Positions 3,374 through 29,806 of a DNA stretch of 37,822 nt are shown one piece after another. Position 1 is the stretch's first letter. Every line of letters starts with the position of its first letter. Origin of the DNA: an uncultured Alphaproteobacteria bacterium (GTDB lineage Bacteria > Pseudomonadota > Alphaproteobacteria > Micropepsales > Micropepsaceae). Under the pieces are notes generated by a model. That model searched no databases. It was not told the origin of the DNA and was given only the letters and a program-made list of their open reading frames with translations. The stretch lies in assembly GCA_903837555.1 (NCBI GenBank), contig CAILUV010000025.1, positions 1 through 37,822 of the forward strand, in the 5' to 3' direction. A program made the translations under genes and the position numbers.

Positions 3374-4425
3374 TGAGCTTTCTGTCGGTATCGCAGGTCA
3401 GCAAGGCGTTCGGCGGCGCGCGTGTGGTCGATGCGGTCGATTTGTCGGTCGAACGCGGCATGTTCTTTTCGCTGCTGGGGCCATCGGGCTGCGGCAAGAG
3501 CACATTGTTGCGCATGATCGCGGGCTTCGAGACGCCCGATCATGGCATCATCACCATCGACGGAGTAGCGATGAACGGCGTGCCGCCGAACCTGCGGCCG
3601 ACCAACATGGTGTTCCAGTCCTATGCGATTTTTCCGCACCTGAACGTGTTCGACAATATCGCCTACGGACTGCGAAAATCCGGCCTTTCCAGCGACGAGC
3701 TGCGCCGCAAGGTCGAAGCCATGCTGGCCACGGTGCGGCTGGAAGGGCTGGGCGCGCGCGCAGCCGACCAGCTTTCCGGCGGCCAGCGGCAGCGCGTGGC
3801 GCTGGCCCGCGCGCTCGTGCGCGAGCCCAAGGTGCTGCTGCTGGACGAGCCGTTGGGCGCGCTCGACAAGCGGCTGCGCGAGGCGATGCAGATCGAGCTC
3901 AGGGCTATCCAGCGCAAGGTCGGCATCACCTTCGTGCTGGTCACGCACGACCAGGAAGAGGCGCTGTCGCTGTCGGACCGGGTTGCGGTGATGAGCGGCG
4001 GCAGGATTTTGCAGGTCGCGTCCCCGCGCGAACTGTACGACCGGCCCAATTGCCGCGAGGTCGCGGACTTTATCGGCGAGATAAACTTTTTCCACGCCAC
4101 GGTAAAAGAAGTCACCGAAAGCAGCGTGACGGTGAATGGCGGACTTCTGGGCATCGTCGCACTGCCCAAGACCAATGTGGCGAATGGCATTACGGCCGGC
4201 GATCATGTGCTGCTGGCGATCCGCCCCGAACATGTGGGCATCGCGCCGCAAGGCCTGTCCGGCACCATCGCCGCCGCAACCTTTCTGGGCGAGCGCAGCC
4301 ACTTCCATGTGAAAATTCCGGGGCGCACGGAGCCGATCGCCGTCAGCGGCCAGGCGCCGGCGGGCGAGTCCGTGTCGCTGGAGTTTCCGCCCGAAAAGCT
4401 TATTGCGCTGCCAGCAACCGGCTGA
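3373..4425 (+). CDS. potA: Spermidine/putrescine ABC transporter ATPase PotA
   Basis: The cytoplasmic ATPase that energises PotBC, 350 residues. Walker A is GPSGCGKST, the Q-loop lies in MVFQSYAIFPH, the ABC signature is LSGGQRQRVALARAL, Walker B is VLLLDEPLGALD, and the switch His is in LVTHDQEEA. A C-terminal TOBE domain (from about residue 260, with LAIRPEHVG) is typical of the PotA/MalK branch. The start overlaps the potC stop by one base. The 3' end overlaps the convergent glnE by 26 bases, so no terminator is visible between them. Confidence 0.95.
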   Translation: MSFLSVSQVSKAFGGARVVDAVDLSVERGMFFSLLGPSGCGKSTLLRMIAGFETPDHGIITIDGVAMNGVPPNLRPTNMVFQSYAIFPHLNVFDNIAYGLRKSGLSSDELRRKVEAMLATVRLEGLGARAADQLSGGQRQRVALARALVREPKVLLLDEPLGALDKRLREAMQIELRAIQRKVGITFVLVTHDQEEALSLSDRVAVMSGGRILQVASPRELYDRPNCREVADFIGEINFFHATVKEVTESSVTVNGGLLGIVALPKTNVANGITAGDHVLLAIRPEHVGIAPQGLSGTIAAATFLGERSHFHVKIPGRTEPIAVSGQAPAGESVSLEFPPEKLIALPATG

Positions 4426-7264
4426 AGATTTCCCGCGTCTGGCCTTGCAGTTGCGCAAGCAGCTTTTGCGCCTGCGCAAAGCTTTCGACTTCCGCCGCCC
4501 GCGTCAGCAGCGCCTTCAGACCCGGCGTCGCCTCTTCGATCTTCGGCGTTTCGTCCAGCGCGATGCGCAGCACCTGTGTCAGCGCGTGCTGCAGCCGGGC
4601 GGAGGCGATCAGCGTGTCGGCATCTTGCGCCGGCAGCGCGCCCGCGCCCTTCAGCATGATCAGCGCGCCGATGGTGTTGGTGTCGAGCACGGTGGGACGG
4701 GCGGGCGCGTGCACCAGTTGCAGCGCCTGGGCGATGAACTCGATATCCACCAGCCCGCCGGGCGCGTGCTTGAGGTCCCACGGATTGGCGCCGGGAAAGG
4801 TCAGCGCCATTTTCTCGCGCATGTCGCGGGCGTCGTTGATGATGTCCTGCGCCGGACGCGGCTGGGTCAGGCGGCGGCGGATTTCGCTCTCCACCCGCGC
4901 GCGCAATGCGGGGGTTCCCGCCACCAGCCGGGCGCGGGTCAACGCCATATGTTCCCAGGTCCAGCTTTCGCTGGCGTGATAGACCGCGAAGCTTTCCAGC
5001 GACACCGCCACCGGCCCCTTGTTCCCGGTCGGACGCAGCCGCATGTCCACTTCGTACAACGTGCCAGCCGCCGTCGGCGTGGTGAGGGCCGATATCAGCC
5101 GCTGCGCCAGCCGCGCAAAGTACAGCGTGGGTGACAACGGCTTGGCGCCATCCGAGGCTTCCACGCCCGGCGGCGTGTCGTAGATAAAGACGAGATCAAG
5201 ATCGGAACTGGCGGTCATTTCCCGCCCGCCCAGCTTGCCCATCGCCACCACCACAAAGCCCGCGCCCTTGATGCGGCCATGGGCGGCGGCCATCTCGCCT
5301 TCCACCTTTGGCAGCAGACCTTCGATCACCGCTTCGGCGATGTCGGTCAGCGCCGGACCGGCCTGGTCGGCGCGCGCCGCGCCTTCGACGATCTGCACCC
5401 CGACGCGGAAAATCGCTTCGCGGGTGAAGCGCCGCGCCGCATCCAGCACCTCTTCATAATCGCCGGTGACGAACTGGGCGAAGCGCGCATCAAGCTGCTG
5501 GCGCGGCGGCAGGCTGGTGAGGAAATCGGCGTCCAGCAGCGCATCCATGATGGCGGGATTGCGCGCCAGGTAAGTGGCCAAGCGCGGCGTCGAACCCACG
5601 ATCTTGGCCAGCAGGTCCAGGAACTGCGGCCGCGCCAGGAACAGCGAGAAAAGCTGCACGCCCGACGGCAGGTTGGAGAGAAACAGGTCGAACTGCTTGA
5701 AGGCGACATCCGGATCGGCGGCGGCGCCCAACGCCTTCAGAATGACCGGGATCAGCTTGGTCAGCAGCTCGCGCGCGCGCTGCGAGCGCATGGCGCGGAT
5801 GCGGCCATGATGCCAGCCGCGAATGGCGGCCGACACATGCGCCGCATCGGTGAAACCCATCGCCTCCAGCGTCTTCAGCGTTTCGGGGTCTTCTTCCACC
5901 CCGGTAAAGACCAGATTGCCCTGCGCGCTGGTCAGGTCGGGCTGACTTTCAAATAGCTTGGCATAATGACCCTGCACATTTTCCAGAACGCCCGTCAGCG
6001 CCTTGCGAAAATCCTCCGCGCTGTCATGGCCCATGAAACAGGCGACATGCGCGATATCCGCGTCTCTGTCGGGCAGCGTATGGGTCTGCTGGTCCTCGAT
6101 CATCTGCAGGCGATGCTCGAGCGTGCGCAGGTAGCGGTAATCGGCCTTCAGTTCCTCGGCCACCTGGGCATCGACCCGCCCCTCGCCGACCAGCGCGTCC
6201 AGCGCGCCCTGCGTGGTGGGCACGCGCAGGACCGGATGCCGCCCGCCCAGAATGAGCTGCTGAGTCTGGGCGAAGAATTCGATCTCGCGAATGCCGCCGC
6301 GCCCCAGCTTGATATTGTGTCCCGCCACTGCGATCTCGCCATGACCGACATGGGCGTGGATCTGGCGCTTGATGGACTGGATGTCCTCGATAGCCGCAAA
6401 ATCCAGGTAGCGCCGCCAGATAAAGGGTACCAGGTTCTTCAAGAACATCGCGCCGGTCTCAGGATCACCCGCGCAGGCGCGCGCCTTGATCATGGCGGCG
6501 CGTTCCCAGTTCTGGCCCATAGCCTCATAGTAATCCAGCGCCGCATCGGTGGAGATGGCGATCTGTGTGGCGCCGGCATCGGGACGCAGGCGCAGATCGG
6601 TGCGAAAGACATAGCCGTCGCTGGTGACTTCGCTGAGCAGTTTGACCATGCCGCGCACGATATCCACCGCCGCCCCGCGCATGTCGCCGCGCTTGGAAAA
6701 TGGAAATTTCTGCGCGTCGTAAAACACCACCAGATCGATATCGCTGGAGTAATTCAGCTCATGCGCGCCGTACTTGCCCATCGCCAGCACCGTCATGCCC
6801 AGGCTTTGCTCGAGCCTTGCGCCGTCGCGCTCTTCCATGCCGGCACGCATCGCTTCCTGCCGCAGCAAGAAACGCAGCGCGCCGCTGACGCAGGCATCGG
6901 CAAAGCGCGTCAGCCCGGCGGTGACCTGGCCCACATCCCAGCGACCTTCGACATCGGCCAGGGCGATGGTCAGCGCGGCGCGGCGCTTTGCGATGCGCAG
7001 TTCCGCCATGGCGCGGCTTTCGCTATCAGCATCCGCCACCGCCAGTCCTTGCGCGATGGCCGCGTCCAGCACGGCCTGCGGGCCGGCGGTGAAATAGTCT
7101 CCCAGCACCGCCGTCTCGCGCAGCGCCAGCCGCCCCAGAAAGGCGCTGTTGCCGAACACCGAGTCCAGCAGCGGATCGGTGCGGGTGAAGCCCTGCTCGG
7201 CCAGGCCATCACGAATGCGGGCGGCGCGGGCGGTATCGAAAGGCTGGGGCGGAATACGAAGCAT
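4400..7264 (-). CDS. glnE: Glutamine synthetase adenylyltransferase/adenylyl-removing enzyme GlnE
   Basis: A bifunctional regulator of glutamine synthetase: one domain adds AMP to the synthetase tyrosine, the other removes it by phosphorolysis, under PII control. Two nucleotidyltransferase domains are visible. One has MGKYGAHELNYSSDIDL near residues 162-178 and the other MGKLGGREMTASSDLDLVF in the second half, each with the GS...D-x-D metal site. The length of about 954 residues is normal for the family. The ATG at 7264 is chosen because the only upstream start is a TTG inside a palindrome at 7319-7343. Its ribosome binding site is weak. It lies 100 bases after the histidine kinase in the same direction and may share its transcript. 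Confidence 0.96.
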   Translation of the reverse strand: MLRIPPQPFDTARAARIRDGLAEQGFTRTDPLLDSVFGNSAFLGRLALRETAVLGDYFTAGPQAVLDAAIAQGLAVADADSESRAMAELRIAKRRAALTIALADVEGRWDVGQVTAGLTRFADACVSGALRFLLRQEAMRAGMEERDGARLEQSLGMTVLAMGKYGAHELNYSSDIDLVVFYDAQKFPFSKRGDMRGAAVDIVRGMVKLLSEVTSDGYVFRTDLRLRPDAGATQIAISTDAALDYYEAMGQNWERAAMIKARACAGDPETGAMFLKNLVPFIWRRYLDFAAIEDIQSIKRQIHAHVGHGEIAVAGHNIKLGRGGIREIEFFAQTQQLILGGRHPVLRVPTTQGALDALVGEGRVDAQVAEELKADYRYLRTLEHRLQMIEDQQTHTLPDRDADIAHVACFMGHDSAEDFRKALTGVLENVQGHYAKLFESQPDLTSAQGNLVFTGVEEDPETLKTLEAMGFTDAAHVSAAIRGWHHGRIRAMRSQRARELLTKLIPVILKALGAAADPDVAFKQFDLFLSNLPSGVQLFSLFLARPQFLDLLAKIVGSTPRLATYLARNPAIMDALLDADFLTSLPPRQQLDARFAQFVTGDYEEVLDAARRFTREAIFRVGVQIVEGAARADQAGPALTDIAEAVIEGLLPKVEGEMAAAHGRIKGAGFVVVAMGKLGGREMTASSDLDLVFIYDTPPGVEASDGAKPLSPTLYFARLAQRLISALTTPTAAGTLYEVDMRLRPTGNKGPVAVSLESFAVYHASESWTWEHMALTRARLVAGTPALRARVESEIRRRLTQPRPAQDIINDARDMREKMALTFPGANPWDLKHAPGGLVDIEFIAQALQLVHAPARPTVLDTNTIGALIMLKGAGALPAQDADTLIASARLQHALTQVLRIALDETPKIEEATPGLKALLTRAAEVESFAQAQKLLAQLQGQTREIFSRLLAAQ

Positions 7265-7318
7265 CACGCACTCTAGCGGGAACGTGGCGCCTCGCCCAAG
7301 CTCGGCGCGCTCGCCGCT

Positions 7319-7357
7319 CAAATCGGTCCACCGGACCGATTTGCCGGGCTACGCCCG
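7319..7357. repeat. REP-like double palindrome
   Basis: A perfect 11-pair stem (7319-7329 with 7333-7343, loop ACC, arms CAAATCGGTCC/GGACCGATTTG) is followed at once by a 5-pair stem (CGGGC 7345-7349, GCCCG 7353-7357). It sits between the histidine kinase stop and glnE. Neither side has a T-run, so it is not a standard terminator. The two-hairpin layout resembles repetitive extragenic palindromes. Only one copy is seen in this window. Confidence 0.5.
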
Positions 7358-7364
7358 CCGCGCC

Positions 7365-8786
7365 TCACTCAGCAGCAGCCTTTAACGGCGAAGCCCGCAA
7401 CGCCGCCTTGGGGAAACGCAAGATCGCCCTCAGCCCGGTGGGAACATTGTCGTCCAGCACCAGCGCGGCATTGTGGAAATGCGCCACCGCCGCCACCAGC
7501 GAAAGGCCCAGCCCAGTGCCGGGCGAGTTGCGGCTCGCTTCCAGCCGCACGAAACGGTCCACCACCCGCGTCCGGTCCTCGCGCGCGATGCCCGGCCCGC
7601 TGTCGCTGACCCACAGATCGACGCCCAGCGGCCCGATATCCGTGCCGATGCGCACATGGCCGCCGGGCGGGGTGTATTTGATGGCATTGTCGGCCAGGTT
7701 GGCCAGTGCCTGGGCGATCAGGCTGCGATTGCCCTCCACCGCGATATCGCCTGCCGGTGCGAGCGTGAGCGTCACATTGCGCTCTTCCGCCAGCGGTTCG
7801 TACAACTCGGCCACATCGGCGGCGACCGACGGCAGGTCCAGCACCGTCATCGCCGCGCGCGTGGTGCCGGCATCGGTTTGCGCAATCAGCAGCAGCGCAT
7901 TGAACGTGCCGATCAGCTGGTCGGTCTCGGCGATGGCGCGCTCGATCTCGCCCGCAAGTTCTTCCTTGCTGCGCATGTCCCCGGCTGTGAGCCTTTTGGC
8001 GGAATCTTCCAGCCGGTTGCGAAGGCGGTTGAGCGGCGTGCGCAGATCATGCGCCACTGAATCGGTCACCTCGCGCATGCCGCGCATCAGCCGTTCGATC
8101 CGGTCCAGCATGCGGTTGAGATTTTCCGCCAACGTGTCGAACTCATCGCCCGATCCGGTCAAGGGCACGCGCCGCGTCAGATCACCGGCAATGATCTCGC
8201 CGCTGGTGCGGTTGATCGCATCCAGCCGGTTAAGCATGTTGCGGCTCATCACCGCGCCGCCCGCAAGGCCCAGCAGCAGGATCAGCCCCACCGTCCAGGG
8301 CAGGGTGGTGGTGAACATGCGGGTGGTGAGAAAGCGTTCATGCACGTCCTGGGCGACCAGAAGCACAAAGCCGCCGGTCACCGGAAACATGCGGCCACGG
8401 GCGCGGCGCGATTCCAGCTTGCCATCCACCGGGCGCTCATAATCAAACTCGACGAAATTCTCGGCCGTCACCACCGTCTGCGGCCAGGAATCCAGATTGC
8501 CGGCGATGCGGCGGCGCTGACTGTCGGTGAGGAGATAGAGCGACTGCCCGGCACTCGCCGAACGCGCATGCACGCTCTCGGCCAGGCCGCGCAAGCCCAG
8601 GTGATGATACTGCTCGGACAGGCCGGTAATTTCCGCGGCGACGATCTGGTCGGTCTGCCCGTCCAGGGTGCGTACCGTGTTCCAGTAGGTAAAAGCCATC
8701 AGCGCCGTCACCGAAAGGGCGAACAGCAGCACATAGCCAAGCACGATGCGAAAGGCCTGGGTCCGAAGCAGGTGGCCGATGCGCAT
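7365..8786 (-). CDS. Two-component sensor histidine kinase (DegP-linked)
   Basis: An inner-membrane sensor kinase of 473 residues. Helix 1 is at about residues 13-33 and helix 2 is the hydrophobic stretch from [17 protein letters not shown], with a periplasmic domain of about 130 residues between them. A HAMP linker follows, then the DHp helix with His246 in [18 protein letters not shown]. The ATP-binding domain shows [13 protein letters not shown] (N box), [11 protein letters not shown] (G1) and GTGLGLSLV (G2). It follows the response regulator by 31 bases and is surely its partner. In many Rhizobiales the same pair sits between degP and glnE. The signal sensed is unknown; an envelope role is inferred from degP. 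Confidence 0.93.
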
Positions 8787-8817
8787 CCGCGTCCCCCGCC
8801 CCTAGCCGAATTTTCGC

Positions 8818-9492
8818 TTAGTGCGCACGGATCATGTAACCCGCGCCCCGCACCGTGTGCAGCAAGGGCGCCTGGAAGCCCTTGTCGATCTTGGCCCGAA
8901 GACGGCTGATATGAACGTCGATCACGTTGGTCTGGGGATCGAAATGATATTCCCACACGCTTTCGAGCAGCATGGTACGGGTCACCACCTGGCCGGCATG
9001 GCGCATGAGATATTCCAGCAGGCGGAATTCGCGCGGCTGCAGTTCGATATCGGTGCCGCTGCGCTTGGCAGCACGCGTCAGCAGATCCAGTTCCAGATCG
9101 CCCACGCCCAGCCGCGTCTTGATGCCCGCGGGCGCACGGCGGCGCAGCAGCGCGTCGATGCGGGCGAGCAGTTCGACAAAGGCATAGGGCTTGGCGAGAT
9201 AATCATCGCCGCCCGCCTTGAGGCCCTTCACGCGATCGTCCACTTCCGACAGGGCTGACAGGAACAGCACCGGCGTCTGGTTGCCATGCTCGCGCATTTC
9301 GCCAACCAGCTTCAGGCCGTCCATCTTGGGCAGCATGCGATCAATGATCGCCACGTCATAGGCCCGCGACAGCGCCAGCGACAGGCCGGTTTCACCGTCG
9401 GAGGCTTCGTCCACCACATGGCCCGACTCTTTGAGACCCTGAACCAGATAGCGCTGCGCTTCCAGATCGTCTTCGACTACGAGGATTCGCAT
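8818..9492 (-). CDS. OmpR-family response regulator (DegP-linked)
   Basis: A DNA-binding response regulator of 224 residues. The receiver domain has the acidic pair VVEDD near residue 8, phospho-acceptor Asp51 in AIIDRMLPKMDG and the conserved Lys in LAKPYAF. A winged-helix domain (about 130-222) ends with the typical DVHISRLRAKID and VRGAGYMI. The ATG at 9492 follows GGGAG at six bases. It is transcribed after degP, but a GC-rich hairpin with a T-run (9528-9550) lies between them, so it may have its own promoter or be expressed by read-through. Likely targets are envelope stress genes, possibly degP, but this is inferred. Confidence 0.94.
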   Translation of the reverse strand: MRILVVEDDLEAQRYLVQGLKESGHVVDEASDGETGLSLALSRAYDVAIIDRMLPKMDGLKLVGEMREHGNQTPVLFLSALSEVDDRVKGLKAGGDDYLAKPYAFVELLARIDALLRRRAPAGIKTRLGVGDLELDLLTRAAKRSGTDIELQPREFRLLEYLMRHAGQVVTRTMLLESVWEYHFDPQTNVIDVHISRLRAKIDKGFQAPLLHTVRGAGYMIRAH

Positions 9493-9527
9493 TCATTCTC
9501 CCGATAAATGCTGGAGGAAGGCAAAAG

Positions 9528-9550
9528 GGGCGCGGGAATCTCCCGCGCCC
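9528..9550 (-). terminator. Rho-independent terminator after degP
   Basis: On the minus strand GGGCGCGGGA pairs with TCCCGCGCCC around loop GAT (10 pairs) and is followed by CTTTTGCC. It lies 9 bases after the degP stop and before the regulator gene, so it likely lowers transcription of the two-component genes from the degP promoter. Confidence 0.7.
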
Positions 9551-9558
9551 GCAAACCA

Positions 9559-11157
9559 TCACGACTTCTCGATGTCGATGGCGACGAAGCCCGTGCCGCC
9601 CTGGGTGCGCGCCACCAGCAGCAGCACGCTGGAACGGCCGCCCTTCTTGGCGTCGCTCACGCCCGACTGGAAATCCGCCGGGCTGCGCACGGTGCGGTTG
9701 CCGACCTTCAGCACCACGTCGCCCGCCTGCAGACCCTTTTCGGCAGCATCGCTGTCGGTATCCACCTTGGTGATCACCGCGCCGCTGGTGACGGCGTCGG
9801 CGACGTTATAGGTGCGCTTGGTTTCGGGCGTGAGCGAGGACAGGGCCAGGCCTGCGGCCGTGGCGCTGGCCGCCGCCGCGCCGGGCTTGCCGGCCGGGGC
9901 GTTGGAGGCAACACGGTCATCCGGGCGCGCCCCGATGGTGACGCGGATTTCCGACGGCTTGCCGCCGCGATTGACCGAGAAGGTCGCGACATTGCCAGCC
10001 GGCACGGTCGCCACCTTGCGGGTCAGGTCGGTGGAATCTTCCACCGACTGACCATTGATTGCGGTGATGATGTCGCCCTGCTCGAAGCCCGCCTTGGCGG
10101 CCGGACCATTGGCGACCACTTCGGCCACCAGTGCGCCCTTGCTTTCCTTGATGCCGAGCGAGGCGGCGATTTCCGGCGTCACGCTCTGGATATTGACGCC
10201 CAGATAGCCGCGATTGACCTTGCCGTGGTCCTTGAGCTGCGCCACGACGTCGTGGATCAGGCTGGCCGGAATGGCGAACCCGATGCCGACGCTGCCGCCG
10301 GAAGGCGAGAAGATCATCGAGTTCATGCCGATGACCTGGCCGCGCAGGTCGAAGGTCGGCCCGCCGGAGTTGCCCCGGTTGATGGGCGCATCGATCTGGA
10401 TGAAGTTGGTGTATTGCTGGCTGCTTTCGATGTTGCGGCCCAGCGACGACACGATGCCGGCGGTCACGGAGTTGGACAGACCGAAGGGATTGCCCACGGC
10501 CACCACCCAGTCGCCCACGCGCAGGCGCTTGTCATCGCCGAAGTCCACGAACGGCAGCGGCTTGTCGCTCTCCAGCTTAAGCAGGGCGATGTCGGTCACC
10601 GGATCGCTGCCCACCAGGCGGGCGACGAATTCACGCTTGTCCGGCAGGGTGACGGTGATCTTCTTGCTGGCGTCGACCACGTGGTTGTTGGTCACGACAT
10701 AGCCGGCCTTGTCGATGATGAAGCCCGAGCCGGCGCTGAGCGCGCGGCGCGGCGCCTGCTGCTGCGGCGGGCGCTGGCCGAACTGCTGGAACAGGTCGCG
10801 GAACTGCTGCGGGATATTGTCCATGCCTTCGGGTTCGGCCTGCGAGCTTTCCGACTTGATCGACACCACCGCCGGGCTCACCCGCTCCACCAGATCGGCG
10901 AAGCTGTAGGGCGCGCTTTCGAGCATGCGGGGCGTGGCGCGCGGCGCGCTGGACTGGGCCAGCACGGTCGAGGACTGGGCCTGGATTTTCTGGACCGGCG
11001 GCAACAGCGCGAAGGCACCCAGGCCGACCACCACAAAGGACGCGGCAGTGGTCATGGCAATCATGCGGCGCTGGCGCAGGGTCGGTTTGGGAAGGCGGGA
11101 GAAAAATCCTGAGTCCGACGTGACGATATCGGGCGTGTTGTTCTTGGGATCTTGCAT
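9559..11157 (-). CDS. degP: Do/DegP-type periplasmic serine protease
   Basis: A 532-residue HtrA-family protease/chaperone for misfolded envelope proteins. An uncleaved-looking N-terminal helix (AASFVVVGLGAFALL, about residues 39-53) follows a basic cytoplasmic segment, so it may be membrane-anchored. The catalytic triad is visible: His159 in TNNHVVDAS, Asp189 in TDIALLKLE and Ser264 in GNSGGPTFD. Two PDZ domains follow (about 300-400 and 440-525). Typical bacterial DegP is about 450-500 residues; the extra length is the N-terminal tail and an Ala-rich linker between PDZ domains. The ATG at 11157 has GGAG at seven bases. About 97 bases separate it from ccmH, enough for its own promoter. Confidence 0.95.
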   Translation of the reverse strand: MQDPKNNTPDIVTSDSGFFSRLPKPTLRQRRMIAMTTAASFVVVGLGAFALLPPVQKIQAQSSTVLAQSSAPRATPRMLESAPYSFADLVERVSPAVVSIKSESSQAEPEGMDNIPQQFRDLFQQFGQRPPQQQAPRRALSAGSGFIIDKAGYVVTNNHVVDASKKITVTLPDKREFVARLVGSDPVTDIALLKLESDKPLPFVDFGDDKRLRVGDWVVAVGNPFGLSNSVTAGIVSSLGRNIESSQQYTNFIQIDAPINRGNSGGPTFDLRGQVIGMNSMIFSPSGGSVGIGFAIPASLIHDVVAQLKDHGKVNRGYLGVNIQSVTPEIAASLGIKESKGALVAEVVANGPAAKAGFEQGDIITAINGQSVEDSTDLTRKVATVPAGNVATFSVNRGGKPSEIRVTIGARPDDRVASNAPAGKPGAAAASATAAGLALSSLTPETKRTYNVADAVTSGAVITKVDTDSDAAEKGLQAGDVVLKVGNRTVRSPADFQSGVSDAKKGGRSSVLLLVARTQGGTGFVAIDIEKS

Positions 11158-14448: not shown

Positions 14449-15213
14449 TTAGCGGCCCCGCCAGCCGCCGCGGTAACCGCGATGGTGACCACCGCCCCAG
14501 CCGCGATGACCGCCGCCGAACCCGAAGCCCAGCGAAATGCTGGGGCCGTAATAGGGCGCGTAGCCATACGAGCCCCAATAAGGACGATAATATGGCGGCG
14601 GGGGCGGAGGCAGCGGGCCATAGGCATAGTCCGGGCCGTAATCATAACCATAGCCACGCGGCGGCGGACGATCGTCATAACGGTCGTCATAGTTGTAGGC
14701 GCTGCGGGAACCACCATCGGCCTGATGCATGCAGGCGTAATAGGCGGCGGAATAATCCGCTTCCACATCGCGCGCCGCCTGGCGGGCGTTGCTCGAACCG
14801 ACTGCGGTGCCGGCAAGCAGGCCGGCGCCCGCGCCGATCGCCGCGCCCATGCCGGCATCGCCGCTGGCGCCGCCGATGATCGCGCCCAGCGCCGCGCCAC
14901 CCAGGGTTCCGCCGATGCTGCCGCGCGCCTGCTCGTCACGCGCCGCGTCGCGCGGATTGGTGTAGCCGGTGCGCGCCGCCGCATCGCGGCGGCAGAACAT
15001 ATCGCGGTCGCGCTGTTCGTTGGCGGTGGCCTGGGCGCGCGGATTGGCCTGACGGTCGGAAACCGGCGGGCCGTAACGGTCATCGGCATCAAAGTCCGGG
15101 GCGCTGCGCGCGGTGCCGGACAGATCGGTGGGCGGCGAATTCGCCGGCTGCGCCAGCGCGGTTCCGCCCAGCAGGGCGACCGTCAGGGCGGCGATAAGCG
15201 GGGTGCGGAACAT
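14449..15213 (-). CDS. Exported glycine-zipper protein with Tyr/Gly/Pro-rich tail
   Basis: A 254-residue exported protein. It has a signal peptide (cleavage likely after LGGTALA), then a polar region with one CRRDAA motif. A glycine-zipper segment follows (IGGTLGGAALGAIIGGASG and GAAIGAGAGLLAGTAVG, about 97-137), the kind that packs into membranes in the SlyB/Rickettsia 17-kDa antigen-like group. A Cys sits in YYACMHQ. The last 80 residues are rich in Tyr, Gly, Pro and Arg. The ATG at 15213 is preferred over an upstream TTG because GGAGA precedes it at about ten bases. A hairpin terminator follows. An outer-membrane or periplasmic structural role is plausible; no enzyme motif is seen. Confidence 0.88.
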   Translation of the reverse strand: MFRTPLIAALTVALLGGTALAQPANSPPTDLSGTARSAPDFDADDRYGPPVSDRQANPRAQATANEQRDRDMFCRRDAAARTGYTNPRDAARDEQARGSIGGTLGGAALGAIIGGASGDAGMGAAIGAGAGLLAGTAVGSSNARQAARDVEADYSAAYYACMHQADGGSRSAYNYDDRYDDRPPPRGYGYDYGPDYAYGPLPPPPPPYYRPYWGSYGYAPYYGPSISLGFGFGGGHRGWGGGHHRGYRGGWRGR

Positions 15214-15321
15214 CGTCAAACGTCTCCAAAGAAATTCTTCTTGCCCCTACGCAAGAGGTAAGTAGGAGACGATGCAGACCGTTCAATGTCTATCGGTTTA
15301 TTTGTGCGGAACCAGCCCGCC

Positions 15322-15339
15322 GTTCATCCGCCGTTCAGG
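15322..15339 (+). promoter_or_regulatory. Weaker GTTCAT-type 11-base direct repeat
   Basis: GTTCATC (15322-15328) and GTTCAGG (15333-15339) repeat with an 11-base period, like the boxes at 19488 and 29154. It lies about 109 bases before the glycine-zipper start, in the opposite orientation to that gene, and the second half has one mismatch in the hexamer. The 244 bases between 15213 and 15458 hold no convincing gene. Confidence 0.35.
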
Positions 15340-15457: not shown

Positions 15458-16834
15458 TTACGCTGCGGCTGCAGCCTGCGCCGCTTTTCCGCGCCGCCGC
15501 ATCATGGCGGCCTCTTCTTCGCTGAATAGGATGGCGGTGAGTTCCGCGCACAGTTCAAACTGCGCACCCACGATTTCGGCGCGCGCCGGATCGCTTTTAA
15601 GGCCTCTGATGACGTCTTCATTGTAGCGCTGCAGCGTGGTGCAGAGATCTTCGTAAGTGGTCTTCTGCTTGGCGGCAAAAGACGCGGCGGCGGCGAAGTT
15701 ACGGCTGCCCGTCACCAGGCGCGCATAGCGCTTGGCCATTTCGTGCTTTTCCGCGCCTGGATGCTTGCTAAAATCCGCACCGGTGCCCTTGGCCATCGGC
15801 AAAGCGGCGTTGAACTCCTTGGGGGCGCGGTCCATGAAGCCTTCCATCACCTTGCCGATCTGTACCCGCTCGGCCAAGAGCCGCTTGCCCCATTCGCCAT
15901 CGCGCTTGAGTTCGATTTCCTTGACGATATGGCTGGAAAGGTCTGCGAAGGTCTTCACCTCCTCCATCAGCACCTCGGCGTCGAACAACGGGTGGCGCGT
16001 CTGCTGGATCGAGATCTTGAGGACCTCCATGCGGTCGAACAGGATTTCGCCGACCAGACCCATATCGGTCTTGGCGATCAGCGTTTCGTCCTGCTTGCGC
16101 GAAATCATCATCGGCAGACGCAGTGCTTCCCATGGACGGCTGAGCCGGTTCATCGCGATCACCGCGATGTAGGGCGCCACATCGGGATAACTTTGCATCA
16201 TCGCGTCATAGACCGCGCGCACATCCCACAGCAGCGTTTCATGGAAGGAAGGAACGGGCTTGGGCAGCAGCGCCGCCAGCTTTTCCAGCGTTTCGCCGGC
16301 AGCCAGCAGCGACGTCATTTCGTCGGCATCTTCCACCGCCAGCGCATCGCCCAGCGTCTTTTGCAGGATCTTGCGTGTGTTGGGATCCTTCAGCGCCGTG
16401 GCCATGGCGGCGGAGGCGACCGGCCAGAACTGGCCGGCGCGGATGATCGCGTCTTCTTCCTTGTGCTGCAGCACCAGCGCCTTGGTTTCGGTGGCGTAGC
16501 GGGCCGCCTCTTCGGGGATCAGCGTCAGCGACACCCAGTTCCACACCGGCACCAGGCTGCCGCGCGCGATGCAGCCCTTCTGCTTGGCCTTGCGCGGCGC
16601 GCAGGTGAGCAAATCCTGGAACGGCCGGCAGAACAGGCGCAGCGGCGTCAGGGTGCGTTCATGCGCGTCGCGGCGCAGGACGGGACGCAAGCCTTCCAGG
16701 ATTGTCGCATGCGGCAGCGCGCGTCCATCCATCAGCCGGTCGACTTCGACCGCCATGGCAAGACGCGCGGCGACATGACCCGGCAGGCCGCCGAGAAACG
16801 CCTTCAGCAATCCGGTTTTGTCCGGTGACAGCAT
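15458..16834 (-). CDS. Uncharacterised 458-residue soluble protein
   Basis: I do not recognise this protein. It has no signal peptide and no clear membrane helix, and it looks largely alpha-helical. It has a Cys/Lys-rich patch (LLTCAPRKAKQKGCIARG, about 75-93), a conserved-looking VPVWNWVSLTLIPEEA region, a possible coiled region around EVKTFADLSSHIVKEIELKRD, and a poly-Ala C-terminus (AAQAAAAA). The ATG at 16834 is preferred over GTG at 16840 because AGGA lies six bases ahead. It follows the feuQ-like kinase by 67 bases, in a position where related genomes with feuPQ-cycHJKL order carry ccmI (cycH). It shows none of the membrane/TPR layout of CcmI. Confidence 0.85.
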   Translation of the reverse strand: MLSPDKTGLLKAFLGGLPGHVAARLAMAVEVDRLMDGRALPHATILEGLRPVLRRDAHERTLTPLRLFCRPFQDLLTCAPRKAKQKGCIARGSLVPVWNWVSLTLIPEEAARYATETKALVLQHKEEDAIIRAGQFWPVASAAMATALKDPNTRKILQKTLGDALAVEDADEMTSLLAAGETLEKLAALLPKPVPSFHETLLWDVRAVYDAMMQSYPDVAPYIAVIAMNRLSRPWEALRLPMMISRKQDETLIAKTDMGLVGEILFDRMEVLKISIQQTRHPLFDAEVLMEEVKTFADLSSHIVKEIELKRDGEWGKRLLAERVQIGKVMEGFMDRAPKEFNAALPMAKGTGADFSKHPGAEKHEMAKRYARLVTGSRNFAAAASFAAKQKTTYEDLCTTLQRYNEDVIRGLKSDPARAEIVGAQFELCAELTAILFSEEEAAMMRRRGKAAQAAAAA

Positions 16835-16907
16835 CGACACTCCTGCTCCGGACGGGCGCCCGGACGCGTGTCAACACTAGGGGATCGTAGTTAATACCCT
16901 GTTTCTT

Positions 16908-18293
16908 TTACACAATTGCCGGCAACTCCAGACAGGCCATCATCCCCCCCATGGGGCTGGCGTCCAGGGCGAAAAAACCCCCGTAAAGCTTGGAAATATC
17001 CCGGACGATGGCCAGTCCCAGGCCCGAGCCGGGCACGCTTTCGTCCAGCCTTTCACCCCGCTCGCCCACCTGAGTCCGCTGCTGGGCCGACAGGCCCGGC
17101 CCGTCATCCTCTATAGTCAGGGACAGCCGTCCGGCGGCGCTCTTGCAGCGCACCCGCACCCGCGCTCGCGCCCACTTGCAGCCATTGTCGATCAGGTTGC
17201 CCAGCATCTCTTCCAGGTCCTGCCGCTCGCCGCGGAAATAAATGAGGTCCGAACATTCCGCGTCGATCACGATGCCGCGCGGCGCATGAATGCGCCCGAT
17301 CACGCGCGCCAGATCGTCCATCACGGTGGACACCTGCGTGCGGTTGCCCAGCACGTCCAGCGAACCGGCGGCACGGGCGCGGGACAGATAGTGGTCCACC
17401 TGACGCCGCATCGAAAACACCTGGCGCTTGATGCTGTCGGCCAGGGGACCAGGCTGGGCGTCGGCTTCCGCCGCCAGCACCGACAGTGGCGTTTTCAGGA
17501 AATGCGCCAGGTTGGAAACATGGGTACGGGCGCGGCCCACCACTTCCTCGCTGTGCTGGATCAGTGAATTGAGCTCTGTGGCGAGCGGTTCGATCTCGGT
17601 GGGGAAATGCCCGTCCAGGCGCCGCGCCTTGCCGTCGCGGATTCGCGCCAGCGCCTCGCTCACCCGGCGCAGCGGCAACAGACCGACACGCACCTGAAGC
17701 AGGATGGCAATGATCAGGCCAAGCCCCAGGATGACAAAGGACCAGATCAGCACGGTGTTGAACTCGCCTGTCTGGCGCTCCACTTCCACCATGTCGCCCG
17801 CAACCACGAAGGTGAATTCACCGGCCGGCTGGTTGGGCGCCAGATCGACGCGGCGCGACACCACGCGCAGATGCTGGCCTTCGGGCCCATCAGCCTCACC
17901 CCAGGTCAGCGCGCCTTTGCGCTCGGTATTCCTGATCTCGATCTCGCGGTCGAACAGCGAGCGCGAAATCTGGCCGCCCGTCGTGCCGGCGCGTATCTGG
18001 TAATAGAGCCCCGAATAGACGCGGTCGAAATTGTGATTGAGGAAGCGGCCCTGCAGCATGACGCCGCCGTTGGGATCGGGCTCAGCGGCAGCGATCAGCC
18101 CGTCCATGTCGCTGGCCAGCGCCATGTCGAAGCTGTTCTGCGCCGCCACGCGGAAGGCGTTGGACAGCACCGCGCCGCCCACAAGCAAGGCCAGGATGGT
18201 CCATATCGCCGCGACCGCGATCAGTCGCGACGAAAGGGACTCAAACCTCAGCCGGCTTGCCGCCCAGTTTCGGATCTTCAAGGGAATAGCCAA
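16908..18293 (-). CDS. feuQ: FeuQ/PhoQ-like sensor histidine kinase
   Basis: An inner-membrane sensor kinase of up to 461 residues. Helix 1 is LIAVAAIWTILALLVGGAV, helix 2 is LIWSFVILGLGLIIAILLQ, with a periplasmic domain of about 140 residues between. HAMP follows, then the DHp helix with His264 in NLAHFLKTPLSVLAAEAD (the PhoQ/FeuQ-type variant with HFLKTPL). The ATPase domain has LGNLIDNGCKWA, EDDGPGLSAQQ and GSGLGLAIV. The start is uncertain: no ATG or GTG is in frame, and TTG at 18293 or 18281 would overlap the regulator gene by 53 or 41 bases. It pairs with the FeuP-like regulator. In rhizobia this pair controls envelope/osmotic-adaptation genes; here the stimulus is unknown. Confidence 0.9.
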   Translation of the reverse strand: MAIPLKIRNWAASRLRFESLSSRLIAVAAIWTILALLVGGAVLSNAFRVAAQNSFDMALASDMDGLIAAAEPDPNGGVMLQGRFLNHNFDRVYSGLYYQIRAGTTGGQISRSLFDREIEIRNTERKGALTWGEADGPEGQHLRVVSRRVDLAPNQPAGEFTFVVAGDMVEVERQTGEFNTVLIWSFVILGLGLIIAILLQVRVGLLPLRRVSEALARIRDGKARRLDGHFPTEIEPLATELNSLIQHSEEVVGRARTHVSNLAHFLKTPLSVLAAEADAQPGPLADSIKRQVFSMRRQVDHYLSRARAAGSLDVLGNRTQVSTVMDDLARVIGRIHAPRGIVIDAECSDLIYFRGERQDLEEMLGNLIDNGCKWARARVRVRCKSAAGRLSLTIEDDGPGLSAQQRTQVGERGERLDESVPGSGLGLAIVRDISKLYGGFFALDASPMGGMMACLELPAIV

Positions 18294-18927
18294 GCCCGCG
18301 CACCGTCTGAATGAGGCCTGCGTCGGTCTTCTTGCGCAGGCGGCCGATGAAAACCTCGATCGTGTTGGAATCGCGGTCGAAGTCCTGGTCGTAGAGATGT
18401 TCGACCAGCTCAGTGCGCGACACCACCTTGCCGCGATGATGGGCGAGATAGGCCAGCAGGCGGTATTCCTGGCTGGTCAGCTTGACCGGGTTGCCGTCAT
18501 AGGTGACGCGGCTGGCGCGCGGATCGATATGCAGCTTGCCGATTTCGATTTCGGCGGTGGCGATGCCGACCGCGCGGCGCAGCAGCGCGCGCAGGCGGGC
18601 CAGCAGTTCCTCGGTGTAAAAGGGCTTGGCGAGATAGTCGTCGGCGCCGGCATCGAAGCCGGCAACCTTGTCGCTCCAGCGGTCGCGAGCGGTGAGGATC
18701 AGCACCGGCATGGTCTTGCCGGACTTGCGCCATTTCTCCAGCACGGTGACGCCGTCCATCTTGGGCAGGCCAAGATCCAGGATCACCGCGTCATACGGTT
18801 CGGTATCGCCCAGGAAATGACCTTCCTCGCCATCGGTGGCCAGATCGACCACGTAGCCGGCGTCCCCCAGCACTTTTTTCAAAAGGCGCTGAAGATCCTT
18901 TTCGTCTTCCACCAGCAGAATGCGCAT
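18241..18927 (-). CDS. feuP: FeuP/PhoP-like response regulator
   Basis: An OmpR/PhoB-family regulator of 228 residues. The receiver has LVEDEKD near residue 6, the stretch EEGHFLGDTEPYDA, which I recall as characteristic of FeuP, phospho-acceptor Asp51 in AVILDLGLPKMDG and Lys in LAKPFYTEE. The winged-helix domain ends in NTIEVFIGRLRKK and TVRGLGYSL. The ATG at 18927 has AGAGGA at seven bases, and starts ten bases after the PepSY-like gene, so the three genes PepSY-feuP-feuQ form an operon. A GTTCAT-N5-GTTCAT direct repeat upstream of the operon (19488-19505) fits the site type expected for such a regulator, suggesting autoregulation. Confidence 0.93.
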   Translation of the reverse strand: MRILLVEDEKDLQRLLKKVLGDAGYVVDLATDGEEGHFLGDTEPYDAVILDLGLPKMDGVTVLEKWRKSGKTMPVLILTARDRWSDKVAGFDAGADDYLAKPFYTEELLARLRALLRRAVGIATAEIEIGKLHIDPRASRVTYDGNPVKLTSQEYRLLAYLAHHRGKVVSRTELVEHLYDQDFDRDSNTIEVFIGRLRKKTDAGLIQTVRGLGYSLEDPKLGGKPAEV

Positions 18928-18937
18928 GCCGTGTCCT

Positions 18938-19465
18938 CTAGCGATCGCGCCGCCAGCGGCCGCGCCTTTCCCCGTAAGGGTTATCATAGCGCGGACGCGG
19001 GACGAAGCTGGGCGCATAGCGCTCGCGTTCACGCGCGCGTTCGCGGCCGAAGCCCCGGTCATAGGGATCGGCCATGTAGGGCGGATAGCGGTCGATATAG
19101 GGACGCGCGCCGCCTTCGCGGCGATAGCTGCGTCCGGCGTCGAAATTTTCGCGTCCGGGCGAAGAGCGCAGGACGCGGCCCGTGCGCGCATCGGCATCGA
19201 ACCAGATGATGCGCCCGTCCGGCGTCATCCATTTGAGATTGTAGTGCGCGTCCCCGTTCGGCCCATAGGTCGGCCCCTGGGCGTCATAGAATTCGCCCGG
19301 ATGGGAACGGCGAATGCCCGGCAGCAGCCGGTCCAGCGGCTGCACGCCATCGGCGCGCTCACGGCGGGACTGGGCCTGGGCCTGGGCCTGGGCCTCCTGA
19401 ACCGGAGCCAGGGCGGTCAGGCCGCAAAAGGCCAGAAAAAGAGCAAAGAAAATACGGGCAAACAT
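18938..19465 (-). CDS. Exported PepSY-like protein, first gene of the feuPQ operon
   Basis: A 175-residue exported protein. The signal peptide spans about residues 1-28 (FARIFFALFLAFCGLTAL...AQA), with a run of Ala-Gln dipeptides at the expected cleavage site. A PepSY-like core follows: HYNLKWMTPDGRIIWFDADA then TGRVL, a beta-strand pattern ending in a vDa-tG motif. The tail is very rich in Arg, Tyr and Pro. It precedes the regulator by ten bases. In Sinorhizobium meliloti the gene before feuP encodes FeuN, a small periplasmic inhibitor of FeuQ. Position and location suggest a similar modulator here, but the protein is longer and homology is not shown. Confidence 0.88.
   Translation of the reverse strand: MFARIFFALFLAFCGLTALAPVQEAQAQAQAQSRRERADGVQPLDRLLPGIRRSHPGEFYDAQGPTYGPNGDAHYNLKWMTPDGRIIWFDADARTGRVLRSSPGRENFDAGRSYRREGGARPYIDRYPPYMADPYDRGFGRERARERERYAPSFVPRPRYDNPYGERRGRWRRDR
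19371..19394 (-). repeat. Four tandem TGGGCC hexamers encoding Ala-Gln
   Basis: TGGGCC repeats four times without change. In the minus-strand gene it encodes an alternating Ala-Gln run at the signal peptide cleavage region. Because the unit is six bases, slippage would change length without a frameshift. Confidence 0.8.
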
Positions 19466-19487
19466 GGGCTTTTTCTAAGGCAAAAGA

Positions 19488-19505
19488 CATGAACCACGCA
19501 TGAAC
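19488..19505 (-). promoter_or_regulatory. PhoP-box-like direct repeat upstream of PepSY-feuPQ
   Basis: On the minus strand this reads GTTCATGcgtgGTTCATG: two identical heptamers with an 11-base period. It lies 22 bases before the start of the PepSY-like gene and about 91 bases before the divergent gene at 19597. OmpR/PhoB-family regulators bind such one-turn direct repeats, and the enteric PhoP box has the same hexamer-N5-hexamer layout. Direct autoregulation by the FeuP-like protein is inferred. Confidence 0.6.
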
Positions 19506-19596
19506 ACCCCGTCCAGACCCGGTTCAGTTTCCTCCCCCTAATGTCGGCTCATGGACGGCAATCAACACCGCCCAGTCGAATGAGAAGGAGACAGTC

Positions 19597-19917
19597 ATGT
19601 TTAACACCAAAACGCTTCTGACGGCAGCTTCCTTGGCGATCCTGACGGCAGTGGGCATCGGCTCCGCCTCGGCCCAGCCCTGGGACCGTGGTCATCGCGG
19701 CGACCGTCACTTCAACGATCACGGCCGCTATGACCGCCATCACGGTTATGTGAACCGGATGCATGTCCACCGCAGCCTGCGCAATCACCGCCTGTCGGTG
19801 ATCAGCGAGCCGTTCTTCATGCGGGGCCGCTATGTGGTGCGCGCCCATGACCGCTTCGGCCGCCTGGTGCTGGTGCAGGTCGATCCCTACAGCGGCCGGT
19901 TCATCCGCCGCCTGTAA
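19597..19917 (+). CDS. Small exported His/Arg-rich PepSY-like protein
   Basis: A 106-residue exported protein. It has a signal peptide with cleavage near SASAQP (about residue 26), then a His/Arg/Asp-rich stretch (HRGDRHFNDHGRYDRHHGYV). The C-terminal half (VISEPFFMRGRYVVRAHDR, then VLVQVDPYSGRFIRR) follows the same strand pattern with a vDp-sG ending as the PepSY-like protein across the divergent promoter. The ATG at 19597 has AAGGAG at good spacing. A perfect terminator hairpin ends the transcript. It could bind metal through its His residues or modulate the neighbouring sensor; both are guesses. Confidence 0.88.
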   Translation: MFNTKTLLTAASLAILTAVGIGSASAQPWDRGHRGDRHFNDHGRYDRHHGYVNRMHVHRSLRNHRLSVISEPFFMRGRYVVRAHDRFGRLVLVQVDPYSGRFIRRL

Positions 19918-29153: not shown

Positions 29154-29171
29154 GTTCATCCTCCATTCATC
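29154..29171 (+). promoter_or_regulatory. PhoP-box-like direct repeat upstream of the Spy-like gene
   Basis: GTTCATCctccATTCATC has two near-identical heptamers with an 11-base period, starting two bases after the DUF934 stop and ending 77 bases before the Spy-like start. It matches the box at 19488 (GTTCATGcgtgGTTCATG) in spacing and in orientation toward the gene. A CCTTA element follows downstream at both places and may be part of the -10 region. Confidence 0.55.
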
Positions 29172-29248: not shown

Positions 29249-29806
29249 ATGACAAGGATATTCATGCGCAAAATTCTTCTTTCGATGGCCGGATGCCTGG
29301 CCGTCTATGGCGCCGCCACCGCCTTTGGCGGCACGGATGCTCACGCCGAACAGTCCACGGCACGCAAGCCGGTGTTGCTGGCGCAGGCCGGTCCGCCGCG
29401 CGGCCAGGACATGGACCGCAAGCGCCAGCCGAGCTGCAACGACATCACCGCCGACAAGCAGGAAGAAATGCGCTGGCTGGAATCCCGCCTGTCGTTGACG
29501 GGCGCACAAGCACCGCTGTTCGCGCGCTGGCGCCAGGTCGCGCTGGACATCGCCCGCCGCAACCAGTCCGAATGCACGGCCCATCAACGCAATGCGAACC
29601 GCGCGCCCAGCCTGCTGGACGGCATCGCCGAGGAAGAAACCATGCTGCGCGGCCGCCTGGCCGACCTGCAGGCCGAACGCCCGGTGCTGGAGGCTTTCTA
29701 TCGCAGCCTGTCGCCGGGCCAGCGCAGCCAGTTGGAACAGCAGGACAACCAGGATGGCCCGCAGGGCGGCGACCAGTGGGATCGCCCGCCGCCGCCGCGG
29801 CGCTAG
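29249..29806 (+). CDS. Spy/CpxP-like periplasmic LTxxQ protein
   Basis: A 185-residue exported protein. The signal peptide spans about residues 6-33 (KILLSMAGCLAVYGAATAF...AHA). The mature part is helical with two LTxxQ-type motifs, LTGAQ at 83-87 and LSPGQ at 154-158, as in Spy, CpxP and ZraP chaperones. Two cysteines (63 and 109) could form a disulfide. It ends Pro/Arg-rich (RPPPPRR). The ATG at 29249 has GAGGA at six bases. It has its own likely promoter with a PhoP-box-like repeat and its own terminator. In E. coli such genes are targets of envelope stress systems; by the shared box this one may be controlled by the FeuP-like regulator. Confidence 0.88.
   Translation: MTRIFMRKILLSMAGCLAVYGAATAFGGTDAHAEQSTARKPVLLAQAGPPRGQDMDRKRQPSCNDITADKQEEMRWLESRLSLTGAQAPLFARWRQVALDIARRNQSECTAHQRNANRAPSLLDGIAEEETMLRGRLADLQAERPVLEAFYRSLSPGQRSQLEQQDNQDGPQGGDQWDRPPPPRR

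Follow-up and report, generated by a model that had tools for sequence, protein, structure and literature searches.

Introduction

The closest systems described for the locus analysed here come from Sinorhizobium meliloti, Salmonella and Rhodobacter sphaeroides, and we give them as they stand in the available portions of the papers cited. In S. meliloti, the periplasmic protein FeuN binds and restrains FeuQ (PMC12714254). In the same organism, Schluter et al. (2013) reported a Motif 3, TTCA-N7-TTCA, upstream of 12 genes, five of them FeuP-dependent, and also at six of nine other FeuP-dependent genes, feuN included; it is their candidate FeuP site, present by their own count (5+3+3) at 11 of the 14 FeuP-dependent genes (PMC3616915). 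Salmonella promoters of PhoP architecture I, that of phoP included, carry two hexamers in direct orientation with 5 nt between them, 12 nt (11 in one case) upstream of the -10 element, and a phoP or rstA box reversed in place has no function (Zwir et al. 2012, PMC3335776). Finally, the R. sphaeroides regulator CenR has been assigned the motif TGA-N8-TGA, which precedes six operons in four related species (Lakey et al., PMC9275681).

The window, that is, the whole stretch of DNA analysed (37,822 nucleotides), comes from an uncultured alphaproteobacterium of the family Micropepsaceae. An earlier note, made from its letters, had proposed that a PhoP-box-like direct repeat controls a PepSY-feuP-feuQ operon and perhaps a divergent exported gene. 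In this work, we analyzed this repeat by sequence comparison at orthologous loci and across genomes. The features concerned are the following:

8818-9492: RR2, DegP-linked OmpR-type regulator, closest FeuP paralogue in the window, about 9 kb from the feu operon
16908-18293, minus strand: sensor histidine kinase, FeuQ-like, start codon uncertain
18241-18927, minus strand: OmpR-family response regulator, FeuP-like (Pfam receiver and winged helix)
18938-19465, minus strand: first gene of the operon, exported 175-aa PepSY-like protein in the position of FeuN (PF03413 below cut-off)
19472-19477, minus strand: predicted -10 element of the operon, TAGAAA, with 11 nt between it and the 17-base box 1 (12 nt counted from GTTCA)
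19488-19505, minus strand: box 1, GTTCATGCGTGGTTCATG, direct repeat of exact heptamers, GTTCATG-N4-GTTCATG
19500-19505 and 19489-19494, minus strand: half-sites of the box 1 core, GTTCAT-N5-GTTCAT, upstream of the PepSY-like/feuP/feuQ operon
19511-19527, plus strand: box 2, GTCCAG-N5-GTTCAG, outward-facing, 5 nt from box 1, before the divergent gene
19539-19544, plus strand: predicted -10 element of the divergent gene, TAATGT, 11 nt after box 2
19597-19917, plus strand: divergent gene for an exported protein of 106 aa that contains a short PepSY-like beta domain
29154-29170, plus strand: related box, GTTCATCCTCCATTCAT, followed after 78 nt by an LTXXQ (Spy/CpxP-type) gene (29249-29806)

Results

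The repeat and the products of the operon

The repeat lies where it had been reported, at 19488-19505 of the minus strand, 22 nt before the ATG of the first gene (19465-19463). The FeuP-like regulator is 67-77% identical to regulators of many Rhizobiales, with a small frame in front of the regulator gene at 55 of the 80 loci described below. The first gene had been called PepSY, a label that held in part: it found no Pfam match at E 0.001, and its score against PF03413 was 16.3 bits, under the gathering score of 24, while nine of 24 homologues matched this family at E ≤0.05 (best 7.5e-5). In the predicted structure, residues 41-100 form a block with pLDDT 90-94. A VIA-align comparison of residues 35-104, run for the first gene only, placed the CD1622 lipoprotein first (Z 8.5, rmsd 1.9, 65 aligned), followed by YpmB (Z 7.7), the C-terminal domain of YpeB (6.8) and UipA (6.2), a moderate match given that VIA-align Z values of 7-8 are common without true kinship. 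We take these four to be PepSY proteins. Since the sub-threshold sequence matches of the homologues and the fold agree, PepSY is the best label for the first gene. The protein ends in an Arg-rich tail.

As for the divergent exported protein, weak PF03413 matches were obtained with five of 20 homologues and none with the window's own protein, and its fold gave a weak match to YpmB (E 1.1). Foldseek returned no match with E below 0.001 for either exported protein.

Conservation upstream of regulator orthologues

We collected the best 80 regulator relatives from a search of named genomes and scanned their upstream sequence (up to 900 bases per locus), scoring each position as a pair of GTTCA[T/G] half-sites (maximum 12). 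With a gap of 5, 56 of the 80 loci reached at least 11, whereas each of the ten other gaps in the range 1-11 yielded only one to six such loci. The best gap-5 scores were 12 in 26 loci, 11 in 30 and below 10 in four. In the kinase coding region, used as a control on the same strand, none of the 80 loci scored at least 11, and on the reverse strand of the upstream region the five scores of at least 11 all belonged to the closest relatives of the window (L049-L053) and correspond to box 2. The unit conserved at these loci is GTTCA[T/G]-N5-GTTCA[T/G], not the exact heptamer. The 80 loci are not 80 independent events, because many are related to each other (Bradyrhizobium, Mesorhizobium). All 80 regulators carry the recognition-helix region DQDFDRDSNT[IV]EVF[IV]GR.

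The position of the motif was also maintained. It lies more than 250 nt before the regulator in 55 of the 80 loci, where a small reading frame, in several cases evidently spurious, always separates the two, and in 42 of these 55 a start codon (ATG, GTG or TTG) follows the box after 22-24 nt. In the remaining 25 loci, mostly from Bradyrhizobium and relatives, the best match is at most 140 nt from the regulator gene, and 23 of these matches score at least 10 of 12 when T, G or C is accepted at the sixth base. This comparative evidence shows a real box that many alphaproteobacteria conserve, in particular upstream of feuP orthologues.

A bidirectional array in the family

Within the family, we searched 96 genomes, of which 82 had a match to the first gene, and examined the best 30 loci, the window's own included. 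The strict box 1 is present in 22 of them, and the other eight carry ATTCAT as the first half. In the 27 loci listed (24 distinct contigs, as three repeat contigs already counted), a -10-like hexamer invariably follows the box after 11 nt, and the ATG comes 22-24 nt past the box; in the eight loci with the weaker first half-site, inspected by eye, the ATG lies 22-24 nt from the box in seven and 25 nt in one. Box 2 occurs at the identical 5-nt offset in all 27 listed loci, with scores of 9-11 out of 12, and at the same offset, with the same range of scores, in the eight ATTCAT loci. At the place of the box 2 -10 element, TANNNT or CANNNT is found in 26 of the 27 listed loci and in seven of the eight further loci. 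Reading both groups together, every one of the 30 family loci examined contains four half-sites spaced with an 11-bp period, the two pairs pointing away from each other. A homologue of the divergent exported gene accompanies the array in 23 of the 27 listed loci (21 of 24 distinct contigs). Control of this gene, which had been put forward with a "perhaps", gains support since a conserved element of its own faces it.

Boxes across genomes

The pattern GTTCAK-N5-GTTCAK was searched in 20 congeneric genomes, selected from the 96 family genomes and all with a first-gene match (66.7 Mb used; the rounded sizes sum to 66.4). It gave 132 matches, in comparison with 179 for the same half-sites at five wrong spacings together (gaps 6-10), about 36 per gap. 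We base the excess, 3.7-fold, on this control, because the reversed pattern, with five matches, is too lenient and overstates it. In the window's own genome there are eight sites of the form RTTCAK-N5-RTTCAK and one match to its reversed control.

A pooled set of 141 distinct sites was assembled from the 20 congeners, the own genome and further family loci, feu promoters included. The -10 signature (A at +13, T at +17) accompanies 79 of them, where 6.9 are expected. With exported-type frames called by a simple text pattern for signal peptides, such a frame lies within 130 nt downstream of 77 of the 141 sites, compared with 57 of 705 random positions; 64 sites have none, and at 35 of the 141 such a frame lies on the opposite side of the box. 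The targets that recur are Tyr/Gly-rich exported proteins, glycine-zipper-like proteins, an RcnB-domain protein, lipoproteins and an HlyD-type efflux adaptor. The related box of the window (29154-29170), one of the eight sites in the own genome, has a -10-like sequence that is one base off the exact register.

Several other sites were recorded along the way. At 15322-15338 (plus strand), GTTCATCCGCCGTTCAG lies between a glycine-zipper-like gene (14449-15219, minus strand) and a gene at 15458-16840 (minus strand); it points away from the former and is not explicable as a normal promoter box, and on the other strand it reads TGA-N8-TGA, the published CenR layout, pointing toward the glycine-zipper-like gene. 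Of the 20 congeners, 12 carry a box of opposite orientation on the contig of box 1, at a distance of about 4 kb from it, and in one genome lacking FeuP (G074) a box adjoins a glycine-zipper gene. Four places (G054:C58, G025:C242, G081:C20 and G077:C1) contain tandem clusters of GTTCAT half-sites with two full boxes within about 40 nt, possibly a repeat family instead of promoter boxes. One congener has a GTTCAGGCCCAGTTCAG box (L215, G048:C39:87200-89700) that precedes, by about 219 nt, a regulator which we take from its sequence to be CtrA-like.

Distribution of FeuP and of the boxes

Across the class, we compared 18 FeuP-positive genomes from outside the window's family (63-78% identity) with 20 FeuP-negative ones, named genomes taken from the 89 without a match; from the 26 genomes with a FeuP match we omitted the own genome, two congeners, four at 55-62% identity and one with 8% contamination. 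The former contained 68 boxes in 70.6 Mb and the latter 15 in 61.4 Mb (Fisher p 8e-4; rank test on density p 2e-4). The control in this comparison was the reversed pattern, with eight and 11 matches, respectively, together with the FeuP-positive/FeuP-negative difference itself. Three of the 18 FeuP-positive genomes, all outside the genus (G103, G133 and G203), showed no exact box. The tracking of box density with FeuP and the invariance of the recognition-helix region together indicate FeuP as the reader of the box.

The rule of no boxes without FeuP holds across the class and fails inside the genus. Five of 14 genomes searched, with a best regulator match of at most 46% identity, have no detected FeuP and contain 15 boxes in about 10.7 Mb, against 5.7 expected (p 9e-4); excluded from this count were G081 and G036 (paralogues at 53% and 50%), G078 (which has FeuP) and six genomes that had no regulator test. 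The completeness of the five is 100% (G074), 99% (G080), 93% (G079), 89% (G058) and 86% (G076). By eye, the -10 signature is present at seven of the 15 boxes (background 6.9 of 141), and several precede exported genes of the same kinds as elsewhere. In G074 (L320, G074:C18:8000-20000) the feu cassette is absent between otherwise syntenic flanking genes, the neighbouring 460-aa gene being matched in two partial pieces only, and in G080 it is absent between CcmE and a penicillin-binding protein. Because these five congeners keep boxes at other genes, FeuP is possibly not the sole reader: a second regulator or relict sites could account for such boxes, and in the two least complete genomes FeuP could have been missed.

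The window also contains, after the ccm genes and about 9 kb from the feu operon (4400-11157, minus strand), a group of genes that we take to be degP, a second OmpR-type regulator (RR2), its kinase and glnE.

Discussion

The results presented herein support the proposal that the repeat is a control element of the PepSY-feuP-feuQ operon, through its spacing-specific enrichment and its conservation upstream of feuP orthologues. These correspond, in some form, to two of the three checks by which the note could have been refuted, and neither went against it. Very probably, this is an operon of the FeuN/FeuP/FeuQ type in which the repeat serves as an autoregulatory operator, the FeuP-like regulator activating both transcripts together with a regulon of exported and envelope proteins. 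Most likely, it is through the repeat that the operon's own regulator switches on the operon, its neighbouring gene and the exported-protein set.

The claim that no FeuP box had been described needs correction, because TTCA-N7-TTCA was published in 2013, with the same spacing, as a candidate FeuP site (PMC3616915). That motif is present upstream of the feu operon here, contained exactly in GTTCAT-N5-GTTCAT, and the two share the bases TTCA and the 11-bp period; unlike Motif 3 as given in the available text, the core is extended here to GTTCA[T/G], a second, outward-facing box serves the divergent gene, and the bacterium belongs to another order. In the literature covered, this is the only FeuP motif described. 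The order of small periplasmic protein, regulator and kinase also resembles that of S. meliloti FeuN-FeuP-FeuQ (PMC12714254); a difference lies in the 175 residues and Arg-rich tail of the first protein here, a putative counterpart of FeuN by position.

The comparison with enteric PhoP stood for the layout and not for the half-site. Like architecture I (PMC3335776, in its available portion), the box has a 5-nt gap, direct orientation, a predicted -10 element 12 nt downstream and a place in the regulator's own promoter. In contrast to the enteric box, (T/G)GTTTA, the half-site is GTTCA in the window and ATTCA or GTTCA in relatives; besides, a PepSY-like gene precedes the regulator and the targets are rich in small exported proteins.

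The sequence and spacing of the box, its conservation, its genome-wide enrichment and its tracking with FeuP across the class suggest how such a promoter may work. The phosphorylated FeuP-like regulator would occupy both GTTCA half-sites in head-to-tail order, on the same face of the helix, and, as in PhoP architecture I, would replace the -35 contact and recruit RNA polymerase to the predicted -10 element 12 nt downstream. With this element so near the ATG, the operon mRNA should start at or beside the start codon and is expected to be leaderless or nearly so; 171 leaderless starts have been reported in S. meliloti (PMC3616915, available part). Box 2, 5 nt away and facing outward, would take up a second dimer that fires the divergent exported gene, so that the bidirectional array of four half-sites with its 11-bp period may set both transcripts, and the same box would bring a set of exported and envelope proteins under common control. 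We infer from its position and predicted fold that the PepSY-like protein of the first gene probably acts in the periplasm to modulate the kinase, with a feedback role like that of FeuN.

Judged by itself, box 1 is only mildly unusual. The exact sequence occurs once in the window and once in the 2.46-Mb draft assembly, and the six window matches with up to three mismatches (shuffle mean 2.74) were equalled or exceeded in eight of 100 shuffles; any exact 7-mer repeat with this gap has a chance of about 0.7% in a 131-bp stretch at equal base frequencies. These figures leave some room for a chance feature or by-product of base composition, and the proof against it comes from conservation across loci, not from the rarity of a single site: the position, the spacing and the distances to the -10 element and the ATG are kept in many families, and the preference for a gap of 5 in the spacing scan (56 of 80 loci, versus 1-6 at other gaps) rules out a chance repeat, a reading to which we attach practically no probability. 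A CenR site had to be considered because the reverse complement of GTTCA-N6-GTTCA includes TGA-N8-TGA, with the same 11-bp period, and CenR, like the regulator here, would be an OmpR-family protein reading a direct repeat at envelope genes (PMC9275681). In the available part of that paper, however, 28 of the 31 CenR sites are directly upstream of the -35 element and co-directional, and none of the 31 listed sites starts with TGAA, 16 of them having TGAC or TCAC at that place, whereas the TGA form here opposes transcription and the box overlies the -35 region, with 11 nt between it and the predicted -10 element. We rejected a CenR box on this orientation and position and regard it as highly improbable. 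The Pho box recognized by PhoB has half-sites TGTCA. A PhoB box was likewise discarded: the half-site here is GTTCA, and TGTCAY-N5-TGTCAY has no exact match in the assembly, which shows that the box differs and not where PhoB binds.

A less remote alternative, though still an unlikely one, is that the paralogous RR2 reads the box mainly or jointly, with FeuP sharing the site or having taken it over. Functional-looking boxes persist in the congeners without detected FeuP, and RR2 is present in four of these five. In S. meliloti, SMc02366 and SMc02367 form a paralogue pair with a similarity of 60% to FeuP and of 48% to FeuQ, respectively, and the regulon of SMc02366 was given as yet undetermined in the available text (PMC5539429). 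Against RR2 as the reader, its recognition-helix region is unlike that of FeuP (DPQTNVIDVHISRLRAK vs DRDSNTIEVFIGRLRKK), G079 (93% complete) has two boxes and no RR2 was found in it, the window's degP-RR2 genes have no box in front, and box density across the class tracks FeuP. We assume that SMc02366 is the counterpart of RR2. A paired arrangement may also exist in Brucella ovis, where feuPQ is BOV_0603-0604 and another adjacent kinase/regulator pair is BOV_0611-0612 (PMC10746171, available portion); this may be the same arrangement as that of the feu and DegP-linked pairs in the window. It is tempting to speculate, as a doubtful possibility, that in this family FeuPQ and the paralogous DegP-linked system, with about 9 kb between them, both read a single GTTCA-box regulon, that streamlined species can therefore lose FeuPQ and keep the regulon, and that the feu promoter is a rigid two-way switch built on the bidirectional array of four half-sites.

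Altogether, with control by the FeuP-like regulator as the preferred reading, these results connect a candidate motif published in 2013 for a single rhizobium with a testable promoter code that several alphaproteobacterial groups conserve. To that motif they add conservation across several orders, an extended core, a PhoP-like geometry, a bidirectional array, a family regulon and boxes that outlive FeuP. The predicted targets are small exported proteins, an HlyD-type efflux adaptor and an LTXXQ protein. The fixed bidirectional array would tie FeuP to the divergent exported protein, a connection that is directly testable, and the boxes in relatives without FeuP raise the question of shared operators.
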